Assembly: GCF_001996005.1 (NCBI RefSeq)
Contig: NZ_MUFB01000001.1
Coordinates: 1 to 35,679 of the forward strand
Direction: 5' to 3'
Source of the DNA: Salinivibrio siamensis
GTDB taxonomy: Bacteria; Pseudomonadota; Gammaproteobacteria; Enterobacterales; Vibrionaceae
DNA: 35,679 nt
This document shows positions 28,146 to 34,506 of this stretch, in pieces. Every line of letters begins with the position of its first letter. Positions within the stretch are counted from its first letter, which is position 1. A program made the translations under genes and the position numbers. The notes below the pieces were generated by a model. That model searched no databases. It had not been told where the DNA came from and saw only the letters and a program-made list of their open reading frames with translations.

Positions 28146-28994
28146 ATGAGCAATTATCAAGATGCCGATGCCCTCGCCAATTTATCACTTGGCGAAAAAA
28201 CAGATTATCCAACCCAGTACGATCCGTCACAACTACGTGCCGTCCCTCGCGCGCTAAATCGTCAGGCCATCGGACTAGATAATGCGCCGATGCCCTTTAC
28301 CGGTTACGACACCTGGACCTTGTATGAGCTGTCATGGCTCAACAAAAATGGTTTGCCCCAGGTCGCGATTGGCGAAGTCCGTCTACCGGCCTCTAGCCCC
28401 AACTTGATCGAGTCAAAATCATTTAAGCTTTACCTCAATAGCTTTAATCAAACCCGCTTTGATAACTGGCAACAGGTAGCTAACGCATTGCAAACCGATT
28501 TATCCGCCTGTGCGGGCGAAGAGGTGGATGTCACCTTATCACCGCTCAGTGAGTTAGAGGGAGAAACCATCGCTGGCCTAGCGGGTGAATGCATCGATCA
28601 CCAAGATATCAGCATCGATGACTACACATTTAACCCAGACTGGCTCGACGGTGCCGCTCAAGGCGCGGTTGTGTCTGAGACCCTTCACAGCCATTTACTC
28701 AAATCAAATTGCCTGATTACCAATCAGCCAGACTGGGGCTCGGTGAGAATCGCCTATAAAGGCAACAAGATAAACCGTGAGAAGCTGCTTCGCTACTTGG
28801 TGTCATTTCGTGAGCACAATGAGTTTCATGAGCAATGTGTGGAGCGCATTTTTATGGATATCATGCGTTTTTGCCAGCCAGAAAAGCTCACCGTTTATGC
28901 CCGTTACACGCGTCGCGGTGGTTTAGATATTAATCCATACCGTACGAACATGGGTAAAACACCAAGCGAAAACAACCGTTTGGCAAGACAATAA
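28146..28994 (+). CDS. queF: NADPH-dependent 7-cyano-7-deazaguanine reductase
   Basis: QueF reduces the nitrile of preQ0 to preQ1 with NADPH in queuosine biosynthesis, which modifies the wobble base of Asn, Asp, His and Tyr tRNAs. The 282 residues equal E. coli QueF, the long two-domain (unimodular) type. The catalytic Cys is in [13 protein letters not shown] (about C189), with the substrate-binding Glu in [12 protein letters not shown]. The N-terminal half is the family's degenerate T-fold domain (ARTGYDT-like [15 protein letters not shown]). It is followed by a strong terminator. Confidence 0.98.
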
Positions 28995-29051: not shown

Positions 29052-31397
29052 ATGCGCATCAGCCGACTACTCGTAGGCCTGCTTTTTTGGTTAACGTCGA
29101 TAACGGCGTTTGCCGCTATCCACTCCTCACCTGTGCTAACCAATGCCGAAAAGCTTCTCGAGACCTCTCCAGCGCAATCGTTGGAAATCAGCAATCGGTT
29201 TTTAGCCCAACGCCGCCTAACCACAGGTGCCAACCGCTCACACGTCAATAACGACACGGATCGCTCGATTCGCACGCCATTGCATACCGTGTATGCCTAT
29301 TTGATCAGTGCCCGAGCCTATGCGTATCTCGATCAACCCATAGAGGCTAAAGCCGCGCTACAAAAAGCGTATCAAGTGGTCGATGAATACGACTTAAAAC
29401 ACGTACAAGTGCAAGTTTTACTGACCGAGGCCTCTCTTATCTGGCACCTTGATCGCGACTCGACGCGCGCCTTAGCGACACTCGATGCCGCCCAAAAAGC
29501 GATTGAAACCTTGCCGGAAAACAGCTTAAACGGCCAAGCAAGCCGCTTTAAAAGCGCTTTACTGCGTGCCAATATTCTCGCGGCGACCGCAGACAGTGAA
29601 ACCGCGCTTGTCGCCTATGAGAATGCGCGAAGCCAGCTTAGCAATGATCCCCAAGACTTGCGGGATAAAGTCGAGTTTCAGCTCTCGTTGGGCGGCTTTT
29701 TACTCGACCAAAAGCAACATGAAAGTGCCCTGACCGAGTTACTCAGTGCTTTCTGGATAGCAAGCGAGAACGAATACACGGCATTGATTGCGGGTGCCAA
29801 TATGAAGCTGGCCAAGCTGTATAACCAGCAAGGCGTGCTTAATCAAGCCCTTGAGCACGCGAACCAAGCCGCTGCCTTTTTTGAGCACTTCTCATTAAGC
29901 CGACGTTTATCAGCGTCACAGCGCCTATTAGCCACCATTTATGAGCAGCAAGCCCGTTATAATTTTGCCTTGGTGCATTATTTTAATGCGCTTGAAATTG
30001 AGCAAGCACTCGGTCGCCTCCAACCGCTTGCGCAAGTCCACTTAGCCATCGCTCGCACTTATTATCAGCTAGAGCATTTCCCGCTCAGTGACAGATACAT
30101 TCAAGATGCGTTAAGACTGGTCGGTAGCCTACCCAACTCGCCGCTGACCACACAGGCAATGTTGTTACAAGGACGTATTCATCTTGCACTGTCTCAACCA
30201 AAGCAAGCAGAGAAAGAAATTCGCACCGCACTGGAGCGAGCAGAGGTAGAAAAAGACCGCAAAACCATGACGATGGCGCATCATGCCCTCTCCAAAGCCT
30301 TGGAATCGCAAGGCAAGTATCAAGCGGCTCTGATGATGCAACGTGATTATGAAAAGCTGCGCGCACAGCAAACACAATCAGAGCAACAGCAACAAGCCGA
30401 TACCTTTAAACAACAACAGCGTGTGGTCGAGCGACAGCTACAGATGGATGAATTGCAGCGCCAGCTAGATAGCGCACACCAAGAGCAGCTCCACCTACAA
30501 AAGGTCAACTATTTCCTACTAGGCAGCCTTGGGGTGTTAGTGACCATTGTTTACCTTCGTCATCGTGCCGCGGTGATGCGTCAGGGAGAACTCGAAGAGC
30601 TGCGTGATGACTTTTATACGCACCCGCGCACCGGGCTGAGGAACTTACGCATGCTGAATGCCAAGTTACCGCGTTCGTTGGAAAAAAGTAACGCCAACTT
30701 TGAGCAATGGTATCTGAACGACATGATCCACCAGCCACTCAGTGATCGGCTACGCTTTGCCATGTTCGATGTCGCCTTTCTAAAAGCGCTATTTTTGCGT
30801 CTCGGCTATCAAAGGGCGCAAGATATCGAGCGTCAGCTTGGCGACTATTTGTCCGAGCGTGTCACTCAATCTGGCCGCTTATATCATTTCGCCGATACCT
30901 TGTTTATTTATATCGAGACCAATTGGGATCAAGATACCCAGCCTGATGCGCTTGCTCATTTTGTGCAGTCTTTGATCGCAGACTTTGTCAGCCACTACCA
31001 AAGCTGTCAGGCACAAACGGTGAATGCAGGTCACCAACCTCCAGCGCTCACGCCGCAAGTCGCCATTGGTCTCGCGGAATACCCTTTTTTACCGCGCGCG
31101 TACACATCGATTAATGACCAAGAGTTAATCGAGATTTTATTAACGGCTACTCATCAAGCCAGTGATCTCGCGCAACAGACCGGAGAAAGTCATTGGGTAC
31201 ACTTTAGCGCGATTAACACAGCGCCCGCCGCGAGCTTCGTGAACACCAACTTACGTCATGCTTGCTTGAAAGGGATTGACTCTGGATTGGTAAAGGTTAA
31301 ATCTTCAGCGAACGACTTATTGAACTGGCAGAAGGATCACGAATCTGATAAAAAGCCATCGTCAGTTATTGATGATCAGAGCAATAAGTCGGTATAG
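29052..31397 (+). CDS. Membrane TPR protein with a degenerate GGDEF-like C-terminal domain
   Basis: The 781-residue protein has a signal peptide (RISRLLVGLLFWLTSITAFA). A long periplasmic tetratricopeptide-repeat region follows (about 70-440, with units such as AYLDQPIEAKAALQKAY, LYNQQGVLNQALEHANQAA and YEQQARYNFALVHYFNAL). Then come a Gln-rich coiled coil (about 440-480), one membrane segment (about 483-503) and a cytoplasmic domain. That domain has the order of a GGDEF domain (HPRTGLRNLRML for DxLTGLxNRR, then FAMFDVAFLKALFLRLGYQ), but GGDEF is replaced by FADTLFIYIE and the I-site is gone. It should not make c-di-GMP. A sensing or partner-binding role is inferred. The start has GAGGA at 7 nt. 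It lies directly upstream of an intact cyclase. Confidence 0.85.
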   Translation: MRISRLLVGLLFWLTSITAFAAIHSSPVLTNAEKLLETSPAQSLEISNRFLAQRRLTTGANRSHVNNDTDRSIRTPLHTVYAYLISARAYAYLDQPIEAKAALQKAYQVVDEYDLKHVQVQVLLTEASLIWHLDRDSTRALATLDAAQKAIETLPENSLNGQASRFKSALLRANILAATADSETALVAYENARSQLSNDPQDLRDKVEFQLSLGGFLLDQKQHESALTELLSAFWIASENEYTALIAGANMKLAKLYNQQGVLNQALEHANQAAAFFEHFSLSRRLSASQRLLATIYEQQARYNFALVHYFNALEIEQALGRLQPLAQVHLAIARTYYQLEHFPLSDRYIQDALRLVGSLPNSPLTTQAMLLQGRIHLALSQPKQAEKEIRTALERAEVEKDRKTMTMAHHALSKALESQGKYQAALMMQRDYEKLRAQQTQSEQQQQADTFKQQQRVVERQLQMDELQRQLDSAHQEQLHLQKVNYFLLGSLGVLVTIVYLRHRAAVMRQGELEELRDDFYTHPRTGLRNLRMLNAKLPRSLEKSNANFEQWYLNDMIHQPLSDRLRFAMFDVAFLKALFLRLGYQRAQDIERQLGDYLSERVTQSGRLYHFADTLFIYIETNWDQDTQPDALAHFVQSLIADFVSHYQSCQAQTVNAGHQPPALTPQVAIGLAEYPFLPRAYTSINDQELIEILLTATHQASDLAQQTGESHWVHFSAINTAPAASFVNTNLRHACLKGIDSGLVKVKSSANDLLNWQKDHESDKKPSSVIDDQSNKSV

Positions 31398-31449
31398 CTA
31401 CAGGTAGTTAGTGAAACTGTTTTCGCTACCAATGGCGCCAAAACGCGAA

Positions 31450-31455
31450 TATAAT
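31450..31455 (+). promoter_or_regulatory. Possible -10 element for the diguanylate cyclase gene
   Basis: A perfect TATAAT lies 19 nt before the ATG at 31475. No good -35 is visible at 16-18 bp. If used, the message would have a very short leader with little ribosome-binding sequence, so the call is weak. Confidence 0.35.
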
Positions 31456-31474
31456 CAGGTATTTCCTCGATAAA

Positions 31475-33031
31475 ATGACTAAGTCCACCCCATCACCGTT
31501 GTCGGCCCAGCCCGCTCAGGCGGGTAATAATGCGTCGCCCTCAACGTATCGGGAGCTGGCGCTTAAGTCGCGTCGAGAAATCCATAGCCTTAAACGGCTG
31601 GTTTCGCGCTTTATCGCCACGTGCTCGGGTAAAAATAACTTGGTCGACCAAAAACTGGCCGAGTTCCGTGACGTATTGTATTCAACGCAGGATGTTAGCG
31701 CGTTGCTTCCGCGTTTAGCCGTTATTGAACGCATGGTGGGTCATCAAAACATGACACAAGCAAAAGCACAGTCACACCTCGATGAGCAATTTCACACCAG
31801 TGGTGAAACACTACAGCGAGTGACAGGTCTCCCCGCTCAATTGAAACGTGACTTGCGAGATCTATTAGCGCAACCGGCGAACGGTGATACCGAACGCACA
31901 CAACACCTCATTAAGTTACTTCAGCTTTACGAACGCGCCGTGACCTTGCAAGTTGCTAGGCCCCGCACCCAACAAACACCAGACATCGACAACGATCAGA
32001 TACGTCGCGTCGCTGATGAACTACAAAACCTGATTACAGAGCTCGATATCAACGGTCAAGCAGGCGATAAGTTGCTTGAAATCCGCCGTGAACTGCTGAC
32101 CGATATATCACCGGCTACCGTGGTGTCTTTGACGTTGGCGGCACTCAAACTGATTCTGGAAGCCACCCAATCAGAGCGGCGGGCTTCGCAGCAATTTCTC
32201 AGTCAAGTCAATGATGACCTCGTCTCAATAAGCCAACAAAATACCCGTGCGCATGATCATGCGACACAACTACGGCTGGCACATCAAGGTGTCGATCAGC
32301 GCCTCGATCGCACCATTAACGATATTGAACACGAACTCAAACGGAAAGGCGCGGCAAAAGCCAACCCAGAAGCCGCATTAACCCAAGCGCTTGCAGAGCT
32401 GAAAGTGATCGCGCAAGAAAACAAAGCGCTCAAAAATCGCGAACAAGCCTTGGAAGAGCAGTTGGCACACAATCAGAACCAACTTAGCGCCTTAGCAGAG
32501 CAAACCCTCGATCAACATCGTCGCGTCGGCGACCAAGAACGTAAACGCCTGTTAGACCCGCTGACCCGCGTCTACAACCGTGCCGCCCTTAACGATCGTT
32601 TGGAGCATGAGTACCGGTTATGGAAAAAGTACCAGCGCGAGTTTTGCCTTGCCGTCATTGATCTTGACCACTTTAAACAAGTGAATCAACAATTTGGCTA
32701 CGAAGTCGGTGATAAAGCGTTGAAAATTATCGCGCGCAGCATCTACCAATGTCTGCGCGACACCGACTTTATTGCCCGCTTTGGTGGCGAAGAGTTTGTC
32801 ATTTTACTGCCTGATGCGGATGATGAAACGCGGACCGATATTTTGGCCAATATTAGCCACACCATTCGCAAACTCCCGCTGAAGTTTAAAAACGAGCGCG
32901 TTTCAATTAGCGTCTCAATTGGTGCCACCCTCTTCCAAGGTGAGGATACCCCCACGCCGGTGCTAGAGCGTGCTGACCAAGCGCTCTATCAAGCGAAAAA
33001 CAGTGGTCGCAACCAAATCATCTGGTGTTAA
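31475..33031 (+). CDS. Diguanylate cyclase (GGDEF protein, CdgG-like position)
   Basis: The 518-residue protein makes the second messenger c-di-GMP from GTP. It has no signal peptide or membrane segment, so it looks cytoplasmic. Residues 1-340 are helical and Gln-rich with a long coiled coil (about 270-350), probably for dimerisation or contact with a partner. The GGDEF domain (about 352-518) has DPLTRVYNRAAL, VIDLDHFKQVNQQFGYEVGD, the inhibitory I-site RDTD at 428-431 and an intact GGEEF at 437-441, exactly five residues apart. It should be active and product-inhibited. A V. cholerae GGDEF protein, CdgG, sits in what I recall as a similar neighbourhood (from memory) but is described as having a degenerate site; here the site is intact. 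It lies 77 nt downstream of the TPR gene. Confidence 0.93.
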   Translation: MTKSTPSPLSAQPAQAGNNASPSTYRELALKSRREIHSLKRLVSRFIATCSGKNNLVDQKLAEFRDVLYSTQDVSALLPRLAVIERMVGHQNMTQAKAQSHLDEQFHTSGETLQRVTGLPAQLKRDLRDLLAQPANGDTERTQHLIKLLQLYERAVTLQVARPRTQQTPDIDNDQIRRVADELQNLITELDINGQAGDKLLEIRRELLTDISPATVVSLTLAALKLILEATQSERRASQQFLSQVNDDLVSISQQNTRAHDHATQLRLAHQGVDQRLDRTINDIEHELKRKGAAKANPEAALTQALAELKVIAQENKALKNREQALEEQLAHNQNQLSALAEQTLDQHRRVGDQERKRLLDPLTRVYNRAALNDRLEHEYRLWKKYQREFCLAVIDLDHFKQVNQQFGYEVGDKALKIIARSIYQCLRDTDFIARFGGEEFVILLPDADDETRTDILANISHTIRKLPLKFKNERVSISVSIGATLFQGEDTPTPVLERADQALYQAKNSGRNQIIWC

Positions 33032-33150: not shown

Positions 33151-34506
33151 ATGATCACACACATTAGTCCGATTGGAACGATGGATCTGCTTTCTCAAAT
33201 CGAGGTCGATCGTTTAAAAGCCAGCGCCAGCAGTGATCTGTACCGCTTATACCGCAACTGCTCATTGGCCGTTTTAAATTCAGGCAGCCATACAGACAGC
33301 TCCAAAGCACTTCTTGAAAAACACGCCAACTTTGAAATTCGCGTGTTGCGCCGAGAGCGGGGCATCAAACTCGAGCTGGTTAATCCACCGGATCATGCCT
33401 TTGTCGACGGTAAGATCATTCGCGGCATTCAAGAGCATATGTTCTCGGTACTACGCGACATTATTCACGTCAATGTGCAGCTCGAGCATAGTCCTGCCCT
33501 CAACCTCGATAGCTCACCGCATATCACTAACTTAATATTCGGTATCTTGCGTAATGCGAAAACGCTCCGTCCGCGAGTCGATCCTAATTTAGTGGTTTGC
33601 TGGGGGGGGCATTCAATCAACGACATCGAATATCAATACACGCGTGAAGTGGGTCATGAGCTTGGTCTGCGTGAACTGGATATTTGTACGGGGTGTGGCC
33701 CTGGTGCGATGGAGGGGCCAATGAAAGGCGCAGCCATCGGCCATGCCAAGCAGCGCACGTATGACAGCCGATTTATTGGCTTAACCGAGCCCTCTATTAT
33801 CGCTGCTGAGCCGCCGAACCCCATGGTTAACGAGCTGGTGATCATGCCCGATATTGAAAAGCGCCTAGAGGCATTTGTCCGTATCGCGCATGGGATTGTC
33901 ATTTTCCCAGGTGGCGCAGGGACAGCGGAAGAGCTGCTGTATATTCTTGGCATCATGATGCACCCTGATAACCGCTCACAGCCTTTGCCTATCGTGTTAA
34001 CCGGCCCGAAAGAAAGTGAAGATTACTTTCGCGATATCGATGCCTTTATTCGTGATGTATTGGGCGAGGAAGCCACCCAATATTATGAAATCGTGATTGA
34101 CGATCCAGCCAAAGCCGCACGATTAATGAAAAATGCCATGCCTGCCGTCAAAGAGCATCGCAAAGCCACCGGCGATGCCTACTCGTACAATTGGTCATTG
34201 AAAATCGAGCCGGACTTCCAACATCCCTTTGCGCCAACACACGAAAACATGGCTAACCTCAACTTGCACATGAATCAGCGCCCAGAGTTACTCGCTTCAG
34301 CGTTACGTCAGGCATTCTCGGGCATTGTGGCAGGGAATGTTAAAGACGAGGGGATGCGCAATATCGAGCAACACGGCCCATTTAAAATTGATGGGGACAA
34401 GTATTTGATGGCAAAAATGGACAAACTGTTACAAAGCTTCGTCGACCAACAACGGATGAAGCTGCCAGGCACCGCCTATGTGCCGTGCTATGAGATTGTT
34501 TCCTAG
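33151..34506 (+). CDS. ppnN: Nucleotide 5'-monophosphate nucleosidase PpnN
   Basis: PpnN (YgdH) splits purine and pyrimidine nucleoside monophosphates into base and ribose 5-phosphate. In E. coli it is stimulated by (p)ppGpp, linking nucleotide salvage to starvation. The 451 residues (E. coli 454) include the family N-terminal domain ([20 protein letters not shown]) and the LOG-like nucleosidase core with [20 protein letters not shown]. The [15 protein letters not shown] motif near residue 254 is the PGGxGTxxE signature. A C-terminal family domain follows. It precedes xni; in E. coli ppnN and xni are also close, with two other genes between. Confidence 0.97.

Follow-up and report, generated by a model that had tools for sequence, protein, structure and literature searches.

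A close described parallel to the locus studied here is the pair formed by the tetratricopeptide repeat (TPR) protein RcbA and the diguanylate cyclase (DGC) RcbB. According to the published report, the two proteins interact through TPRs, RcbA de-represses RcbB and anchors it when landmarks are absent, and both together raise cyclic diguanylate (c-di-GMP) 1.5-fold in Vibrio vulnificus and nearly 4-fold in Escherichia coli, RcbB without RcbA giving a 1.5-fold rise in E. coli; removal of the C-terminal region of RcbA weakened the effect, with the authors' caveat that stability may be involved (PMC12282931). In Pseudomonas aeruginosa, FimV keeps DgcP at the pole by way of the GGDEF domain of DgcP, a placement for which the catalytic motif is reported to be dispensable (PMC7033161). 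Here we analyze a pair of genes in 35,679 nucleotides of Salinivibrio siamensis (contig NZ_MUFB01000001.1, positions 1 to 35,679), a stretch called the window below. Gene 1 encodes a membrane TPR protein that ends in a predicted GGDEF fold without the GGDEF site (pseudo-GGDEF), and gene 2 a soluble DGC. We lean, with modest confidence, toward the explanation that the membrane pseudo-cyclase docks the soluble DGC and gates or positions it.

Relatives of gene 2 have been studied as CdgG (VC0900). Published texts describe the V. cholerae protein as a degenerate GGDEF protein and biofilm regulator (PMC3359988), report that a serine replaces the first glycine of the CdgG motif and call the protein non-functional (PMC11575326), and list VC0900 as negative in a c-di-GMP-binding screen (PMC4624772). 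CdgG of V. fischeri has SGEEF; its overexpression was without effect and its deletion reduced motility (PMC11575326). VC0901, of which gene 1 is probably the orthologue judging by position, appears as a 'hypothetical protein' in the unit VC0900-901 in a screen for biofilm-repressed genes (PMC9201469). We take gene 2 to be the CdgG orthologue because published primers for a HapR-bound 467-bp vc0900 (cdgG) promoter fragment (PMC3796514) map across the gene 1/gene 2 junction. They sit exactly 467 bp apart, with 4 and 5 mismatches in V. metoecus and with 4 and 7 in V. mimicus; a third Vibrio (L234) matches poorly (4 and 9). The amplicon thus maps to the junction in L229 and L223, relatives used in place of the V. 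cholerae sequence itself. The HapR-bound fragment runs from the 3' end of gene 1 into the start of gene 2 (L229:4552-5018), and quorum sensing may therefore act on gene 2 separately from gene 1 in that lineage. Among open-licence papers we found no study of exactly this pair, in line with the earlier note on this DNA, which knew of no described mechanism for it; RcbA/RcbB is nevertheless a close parallel, so that the idea of such a mechanism has a precedent and is no longer unprecedented.

In the window, queF (28146-28994) is followed by gene 1, gene 2 and ppnN (33151-34506). The two genes are codirectional with 77 bp between them, both open reading frames (ORFs) were confirmed at their positions, and they show the following features, where TM stands for transmembrane and KD19 is a hydropathy score:

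29052..31397, + strand: gene 1, signal peptide - TPR - TM - pseudo-GGDEF protein, 781 aa
29052..29123, + strand: hydrophobic N-terminus, residues 6-24, probable signal peptide (KD19 1.92)
29124..30371, + strand: TPR region, residues ~25-440, predicted periplasmic (Pfam TPR_12, three stretches)
30501..30557, + strand: probable TM segment, residues 484-502 (KD19 1.62)
30576..31244, + strand: pseudo-GGDEF domain, residues 509-731, predicted cytoplasmic (model m814ff94cda08, fold searches, hhalign, dN/dS)
30882..30896, + strand: YHFAD, in place of GG(D/E)EF (family consensus YHFSD)
31398..31474, + strand: intergenic gap, 77 bp, with TATAAT at 31450-31455
31475..33031, + strand: gene 2, soluble DGCcoil-GGDEF DGC, 518 aa, CdgG/VC0900 orthologue
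31544..32497, + strand: DGCcoil region (PF20975), helical bundles followed by one long helix (298-359) that leads into GGDEF
32552..33016, + strand: GGDEF domain, residues 360-514 (Pfam E 1.7e-43)
32756..32767, + strand: I-site RDTD, intact
32783..32797, + strand: active-site motif GGEEF, intact

The Pfam and NCBIfam scans gave no GGDEF match for gene 1 of the window. Its last ~225 residues are predicted to fold as a GGDEF domain in an AlphaFold2 model built from 35 Vibrionaceae sequences (alignment A1), with a predicted local distance difference test (pLDDT) of 79.8 and a predicted template modelling score (pTM) of 0.80. Foldseek found 92 matches in the PDB at E <= 0.001, and every one of the 50 shown contains a GGDEF domain (lowest E 5.7e-8); the same is true of the 50 rows shown by VIA-align, in which PA0861 has Z 16.5 and LapD of V. 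cholerae Z 16.3. By hhalign the domain matches GGDEF with E 2.7e-4 and a probability of 42%, or 65% in a second comparison. Against the GGDEF part of the gene 2 family its profile scores 36.9; none of 30 column shuffles exceeded 19.3, and the control scores are 14.7 (reversed profile), 14.1 (coil) and 15.3 (TPRs). The A1 profile also returned 11 rows among PDB sequences, made up of 8 GGDEF chains (best E 0.006) and 3 QueH. Single-sequence GGDEF matches, found by Pfam in 3 of the 35 A1 members (best E 0.003), are no better than noise, because PET122 matches 7 (best 0.007).

Both the GG(D/E)EF motif and the RxxD I-site are absent from this domain, with YHFAD or YHFSD at the motif position, and we therefore regard it as a pseudo-GGDEF and not as a cyclase. 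In the hhalign alignment with GGDEF, the N and D that contact guanine in GGDEF structures are replaced, as is the I-site. The description of gene 1 in the earlier note, a TPR protein with the outline of GGDEF and neither motif nor I-site, was thus borne out by the TPR_12 match (E 1.2e-10), the TM segment, the predicted fold, YHFAD and the lack of RxxD. The word 'decayed' was not. The domain has conserved motifs of its own, such as YHFSD and YPFLPRA, in which YPF and YH--D are invariant, and among the 35 sequences 27 columns are invariant, including Y103, H104 and D107 of A1. Its ratio of nonsynonymous to synonymous substitution rates (dN/dS) is 0.05-0.08 in three close Salinivibrio comparisons, in which the TPR part has 0.03-0.05, the DGC coil 0.07-0.11 and the GGDEF domain of the DGC (118 codons) 0-0.015. 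We used these three because dS is saturated between more distant Salinivibrio; a fourth comparison (L005) had no usable dS in four of five segments. By these measures the domain is maintained under purifying selection, not decaying, and plain decay of gene 1 was rejected on its dN/dS, its conserved columns and the breadth of its matches, which were found in 291 of 296 family genomes (the match in G001 being weak and limited to the TPR part).

Of 83 aligned stop-to-stop frames, 79 have a hydrophobic 12-mer ahead of the TPRs, and the TM segment reaches a KD19 of at least 1.6 in all 83 orthologues (median 2.24), the 1.62 of the window being the lowest. From the signal and the TM segment we infer a topology with periplasmic TPRs and a cytoplasmic pseudo-GGDEF domain. 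In one Salinivibrio draft (G043:C37:7541-11045) both genes are broken into overlapping frames, probably by sequencing error. As for the gap between the genes, the promoter scan found no paired sigma-70 site in its 77 bp; the 5 sites found in the region (3.8 expected) all lie elsewhere, and a promoter in the gap was dropped.

Gene 2 has the parts expected of an active enzyme. PF20975 matches with E 5.6e-47 (161.1 bits, cut-off 26.7) and GGDEF with 148.6 bits (cut-off 23.8), and the model has a pLDDT of 82 and a pTM of 0.44. Hydropathy indicates no clear TM segment, residues 211-229 scoring 1.57 (region median 1.06, 76 rows), and the Pfam scan gave no TPR match, with DGCcoil standing in the place of TPRs. 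The earlier picture of a soluble protein with a coiled N-terminus and intact GGEEF and RDTD therefore holds. At 27 scored catalytic, I-site and fold positions, all four full-length Salinivibrio rows (L031-L034) have the canonical letters, and gene 2 of the window is identical to them at GGEEF and RDTD. Gene 2 of Salinivibrio thus carries the residues of an active DGC, and its activity is predicted on that ground.

The pair is highly conserved across Vibrionaceae, a check that the earlier note had proposed. Of 80 named Vibrionaceae loci (here and below the best 80 of 209), 77 have the order queF, TPR gene, DGC gene, ppnN, one has queF, TPR, DGC and two have queF, TPR, ppnN. PF20975 is present in 111 of 121 family genomes; both genes were found in 110 of these 121, gene 1 alone in 7, the weak match in G001, gene 2 alone in one (G014) and neither in two (G002, G021). 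Among 60 fetched family regions, 56 have both genes codirectional, three are without gene 2 and one is without gene 1. In the 7 genomes without gene 2, ppnN follows gene 1, and queF lies upstream in 5; it was not found in L095 and is past the contig end in L093. In G014 (L035:4737-4880) a 48-residue remnant of the end of gene 1 precedes an intact DGC, and a longer gene 1 stretch is interrupted by two TGA.

Linkage extends beyond the family. In the order sample, 131 of 247 genomes have PF20975, and the pseudo-GGDEF profile matches directly upstream of the DGC in 79 of the 131, a count that leaves out the 26 weakest profile matches, none of them beside the DGCcoil of an uncounted genome. A whole-protein profile, T2, adds 17 genomes of family f6 (16 new among 17 of 17 loci, plus L129) as well as G370, G384, G386 and G334, so that gene 1 adjoins the DGC upstream in at least 100 of the 131. 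T2 contains 16 order sequences, three of them from f6, and its scores in f6 are partly circular for that reason; the narrower profile had given these three sequences 77-130 bits before T2.

The enzyme half has a less uniform history. Of the 78 named rows that have the DGC, one is truncated; among the 77 whose motif can be read, 19 keep GG(D/E)EF. In a set of 76 rows used for a quick tree, which has open forks and warnings of long outgroup branches meeting (five short rows, L001, L023-L025 and L048, were left out), the motif is intact in 20/20 rows outside the family, 4/4 Salinivibrio and 5/5 of g3 (Enterovibrio/Grimontia), and in 1/13 of g8 (Photobacterium), 0/7 of g10, which we guess to be Aliivibrio, and 4/20 of g12 (Vibrio). 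None of the 40 rows of g8, g10 and g12 has motif and I-site together, and further GGDEF-domain positions are altered too. On the tree the state of the motif must have changed at least 5 times; g8 is separate from g10 and g12, which share their clade with the intact g9. Across the order, 20/20 loci of a first look and 19/20 of a second (exception L341) have GG(D/E)EF. The active site of the DGC thus appears degenerate in most Vibrio, Photobacterium and g10 copies, and appears to have been lost repeatedly. In L048 and L196 (a contig of Photobacterium sp. JCM 19050) the frame of the DGC stops before the motif, at 416 aa, which is either a further path to catalysis loss or an assembly error.

The mechanism that we favor would work as follows. 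The periplasmic TPRs of gene 1 would read a partner or the state of the envelope, one helix would cross the inner membrane, and the dead GGDEF-fold domain would face the cytoplasm. There this domain, perhaps together with the juxtamembrane helix, would dock the GGDEF domain or the long coil of the DGC; the docked enzyme would be held at the membrane or pole, and the formation of its active homodimer would be set by gene 1. Docking, topology and the direction of control are our reading of the comparison, and activation is the direction suggested by RcbA/RcbB. For the majority of Vibrio, Photobacterium and g10 copies, whose DGC has lost the catalytic motif, any remaining function of the pair would be that of a receptor or scaffold.

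Several observations weigh against docking and control of a DGC by gene 1. The hhalign probabilities for its GGDEF fold are only 42-65%, and in one Salinivibrio assembly (G038, L034) the gene 1 frame stops after residue 528, at the start of the pseudo-GGDEF domain, through either an error or a real break. Gene 1 occurs without the DGC in G011, G030, G041, G066, G073, G076 and G079 (7/121), and beside a degenerate motif in 58 of the 77 named rows. For these two reasons controlling DGC catalysis cannot be its sole job; kept without gene 2 or beside a dead one, gene 1 must have more than one job or take part in c-di-GMP-independent signaling. The enzyme in turn occurs without gene 1: all 20 class-level loci lack gene 1 ahead of the DGC, and it is likewise absent from 14 of 14 loci of family f7 (14 of its 17 genomes were looked at). 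The parallel has its own difficulties. According to the published report, deletion of rcbAB left c-di-GMP unchanged in V. vulnificus, and RcbA and RcbB bind via TPRs, which RcbB carries at its N-terminus (PMC12282931), whereas gene 2 has DGCcoil and no TPR; moreover, the RcbA and gene 1 domains, each of which separately matches GGDEF, compare directly with an hhalign E of 0.14 and a probability of 0.4%. The proposal of the earlier note, that the pseudo-cyclase recruits or controls the enzyme, is thus supported in part: order-wide linkage and RcbA/RcbB speak for it, and degenerate DGCs and either gene without the other speak against it.

The loci without gene 1 also bear on the origin of the pair. 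In f7, queF is upstream of the DGC in 12 of the 14 loci; it was not found in L330, and in L133 queF and the DGC are separated by a 587-aa gene on the opposite strand. At the class level the nearest upstream ORF is endonuclease/exonuclease/phosphatase-like in 10 of 20 loci and dsbA-like in 2 of 20 (by eye), a context that may resemble the neighborhood of Pseudomonas DgcP. We infer that the DGC predates the pair, came to lie beside queF and was joined there later by gene 1; alternatively, gene 1 was lost in f7. To the question whether the genes are often apart in relatives, the answer is thus divided: they are together in most of the family and in most DGC-bearing genomes of the order sample, and apart in the class-level and f7 loci. 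The idea that gene 2 is an enzyme strictly dependent on gene 1 was rejected on these last loci.

Part of this evidence would fit a pair that is a scaffold or receptor, a membrane protein-protein switch driven by gene 1 in which c-di-GMP synthesis is an optional, ancestral extra. Gene 1 is found without DGCcoil in 7/121 genomes, against 1/121 for the reverse, and the pair is retained in most Vibrio, Photobacterium and g10 rows though GG(D/E)EF is lost. CdgG of V. cholerae is degenerate and yet regulates biofilm (PMC3359988), and in V. fischeri it is the loss of cdgG, not its overexpression, that is reported to affect motility (PMC11575326). A mere scaffold, however, has no need of the GG(D/E)EF that Salinivibrio, g3 and the order loci (20/20 and 19/20) keep, and we hold this explanation to be somewhat unlikely. 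Another account is that the two proteins are neighbors without functional contact, kept by the inertia of a conserved queF-ppnN block. The two flanking genes do mostly remain when one member is missing, and the HapR-bound fragment over the junction suggests that in that lineage the DGC may be expressed by itself (PMC3796514). This reading seems unlikely to us, since the linkage spans many families of the order while the DGC elsewhere has another context, and since both proteins have GGDEF folds, one of them predicted, and a parallel in RcbA/RcbB. Finally, the pseudo-GGDEF domain might bind another ligand (GTP, c-di-GMP or another protein) and act on another target, the DGC being one of several users. 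Its own invariant motifs (YPF, YH--D) are unlike plain decay and it survives the loss of the DGC, but canonical nucleotide sites are improbable because in the hhalign alignment neither the guanine-contacting N and D nor the I-site is kept, and we consider this very unlikely.

Returning to a pseudo-cyclase that docks the DGC, a membrane pseudo-cyclase dedicated to one soluble DGC would, if true, be a simple answer to how the many DGCs of one cell are kept separate. CdgG looks dead in Vibrio beside active-looking relatives, and a change from enzyme to scaffold is therefore testable within one family. It is possible, if tentative, that pseudo-cyclase/cyclase heteromers are a recurrent wiring of DGCs, that dead-GGDEF TPR proteins arose at least twice (gene 1 and RcbA), and that the docked enzyme may lose catalysis, as in Photobacterium and the Vibrio lineage separately, while the pair persists as a nucleotide-independent or receptor-only switch.

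The second of these origins comes from our comparison of RcbA, for which the query was the V. europaeus pair (L294), chosen by its layout and by the paper's statement on species and used in place of the V. vulnificus sequence. RcbA-like proteins occur in 28 of 71 family genomes and in 0 of 8 Salinivibrio. The RcbA C-terminus (27 sequences, three broken loci, L316, L323 and L324, being left out) matches GGDEF by hhalign with a probability of 83%, E 9.3e-6 and a score of 39.2, whereas none of 30 shuffles exceeded 18.2 and three control profiles scored 14.7-15.8; a single RcbA C-terminal sequence gave no GGDEF match in Pfam or among PDB sequences. The RcbA C-terminus looks like a degenerate GGDEF domain, which is not stated in the accessible part of PMC12282931, and the comparison thus offers a candidate identity for the domain in the 'unknown' half of RcbA. 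Gene 1 and RcbA look independent, because their C-terminal domains lack direct similarity.

Among known systems, LapD resembles gene 1 in build, being a membrane protein with a periplasmic part and a degenerate GGDEF domain that is among the best structural matches of the predicted gene 1 domain. LapD has HAMP and EAL and binds c-di-GMP; in gene 1, unlike LapD, the Pfam scan found neither HAMP nor EAL. FimV is not known to have a GGDEF fold. It is described as LysM-TM-TPR, unlike gene 1, and DgcP as a soluble DGC positioned by this membrane TPR protein through its GGDEF domain (PMC7033161), much as we propose for gene 2. CdgG occupies the same locus as gene 2, with VC0901 probably in the place of gene 1, and gene 2 is orthologous to CdgG; its GGEEF and intact I-site stand in contrast to the serine-first motif of CdgG. 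RcbA is predicted to be cytoplasmic (PMC12282931), whereas gene 1 has a hydrophobic start and a TM segment. RcbA/RcbB nonetheless, encoded by a two-gene operon, resemble the Salinivibrio pair in their order, a TPR protein followed by a DGC, and in the apparently degenerate GGDEF domain at the C-terminus of the first protein.

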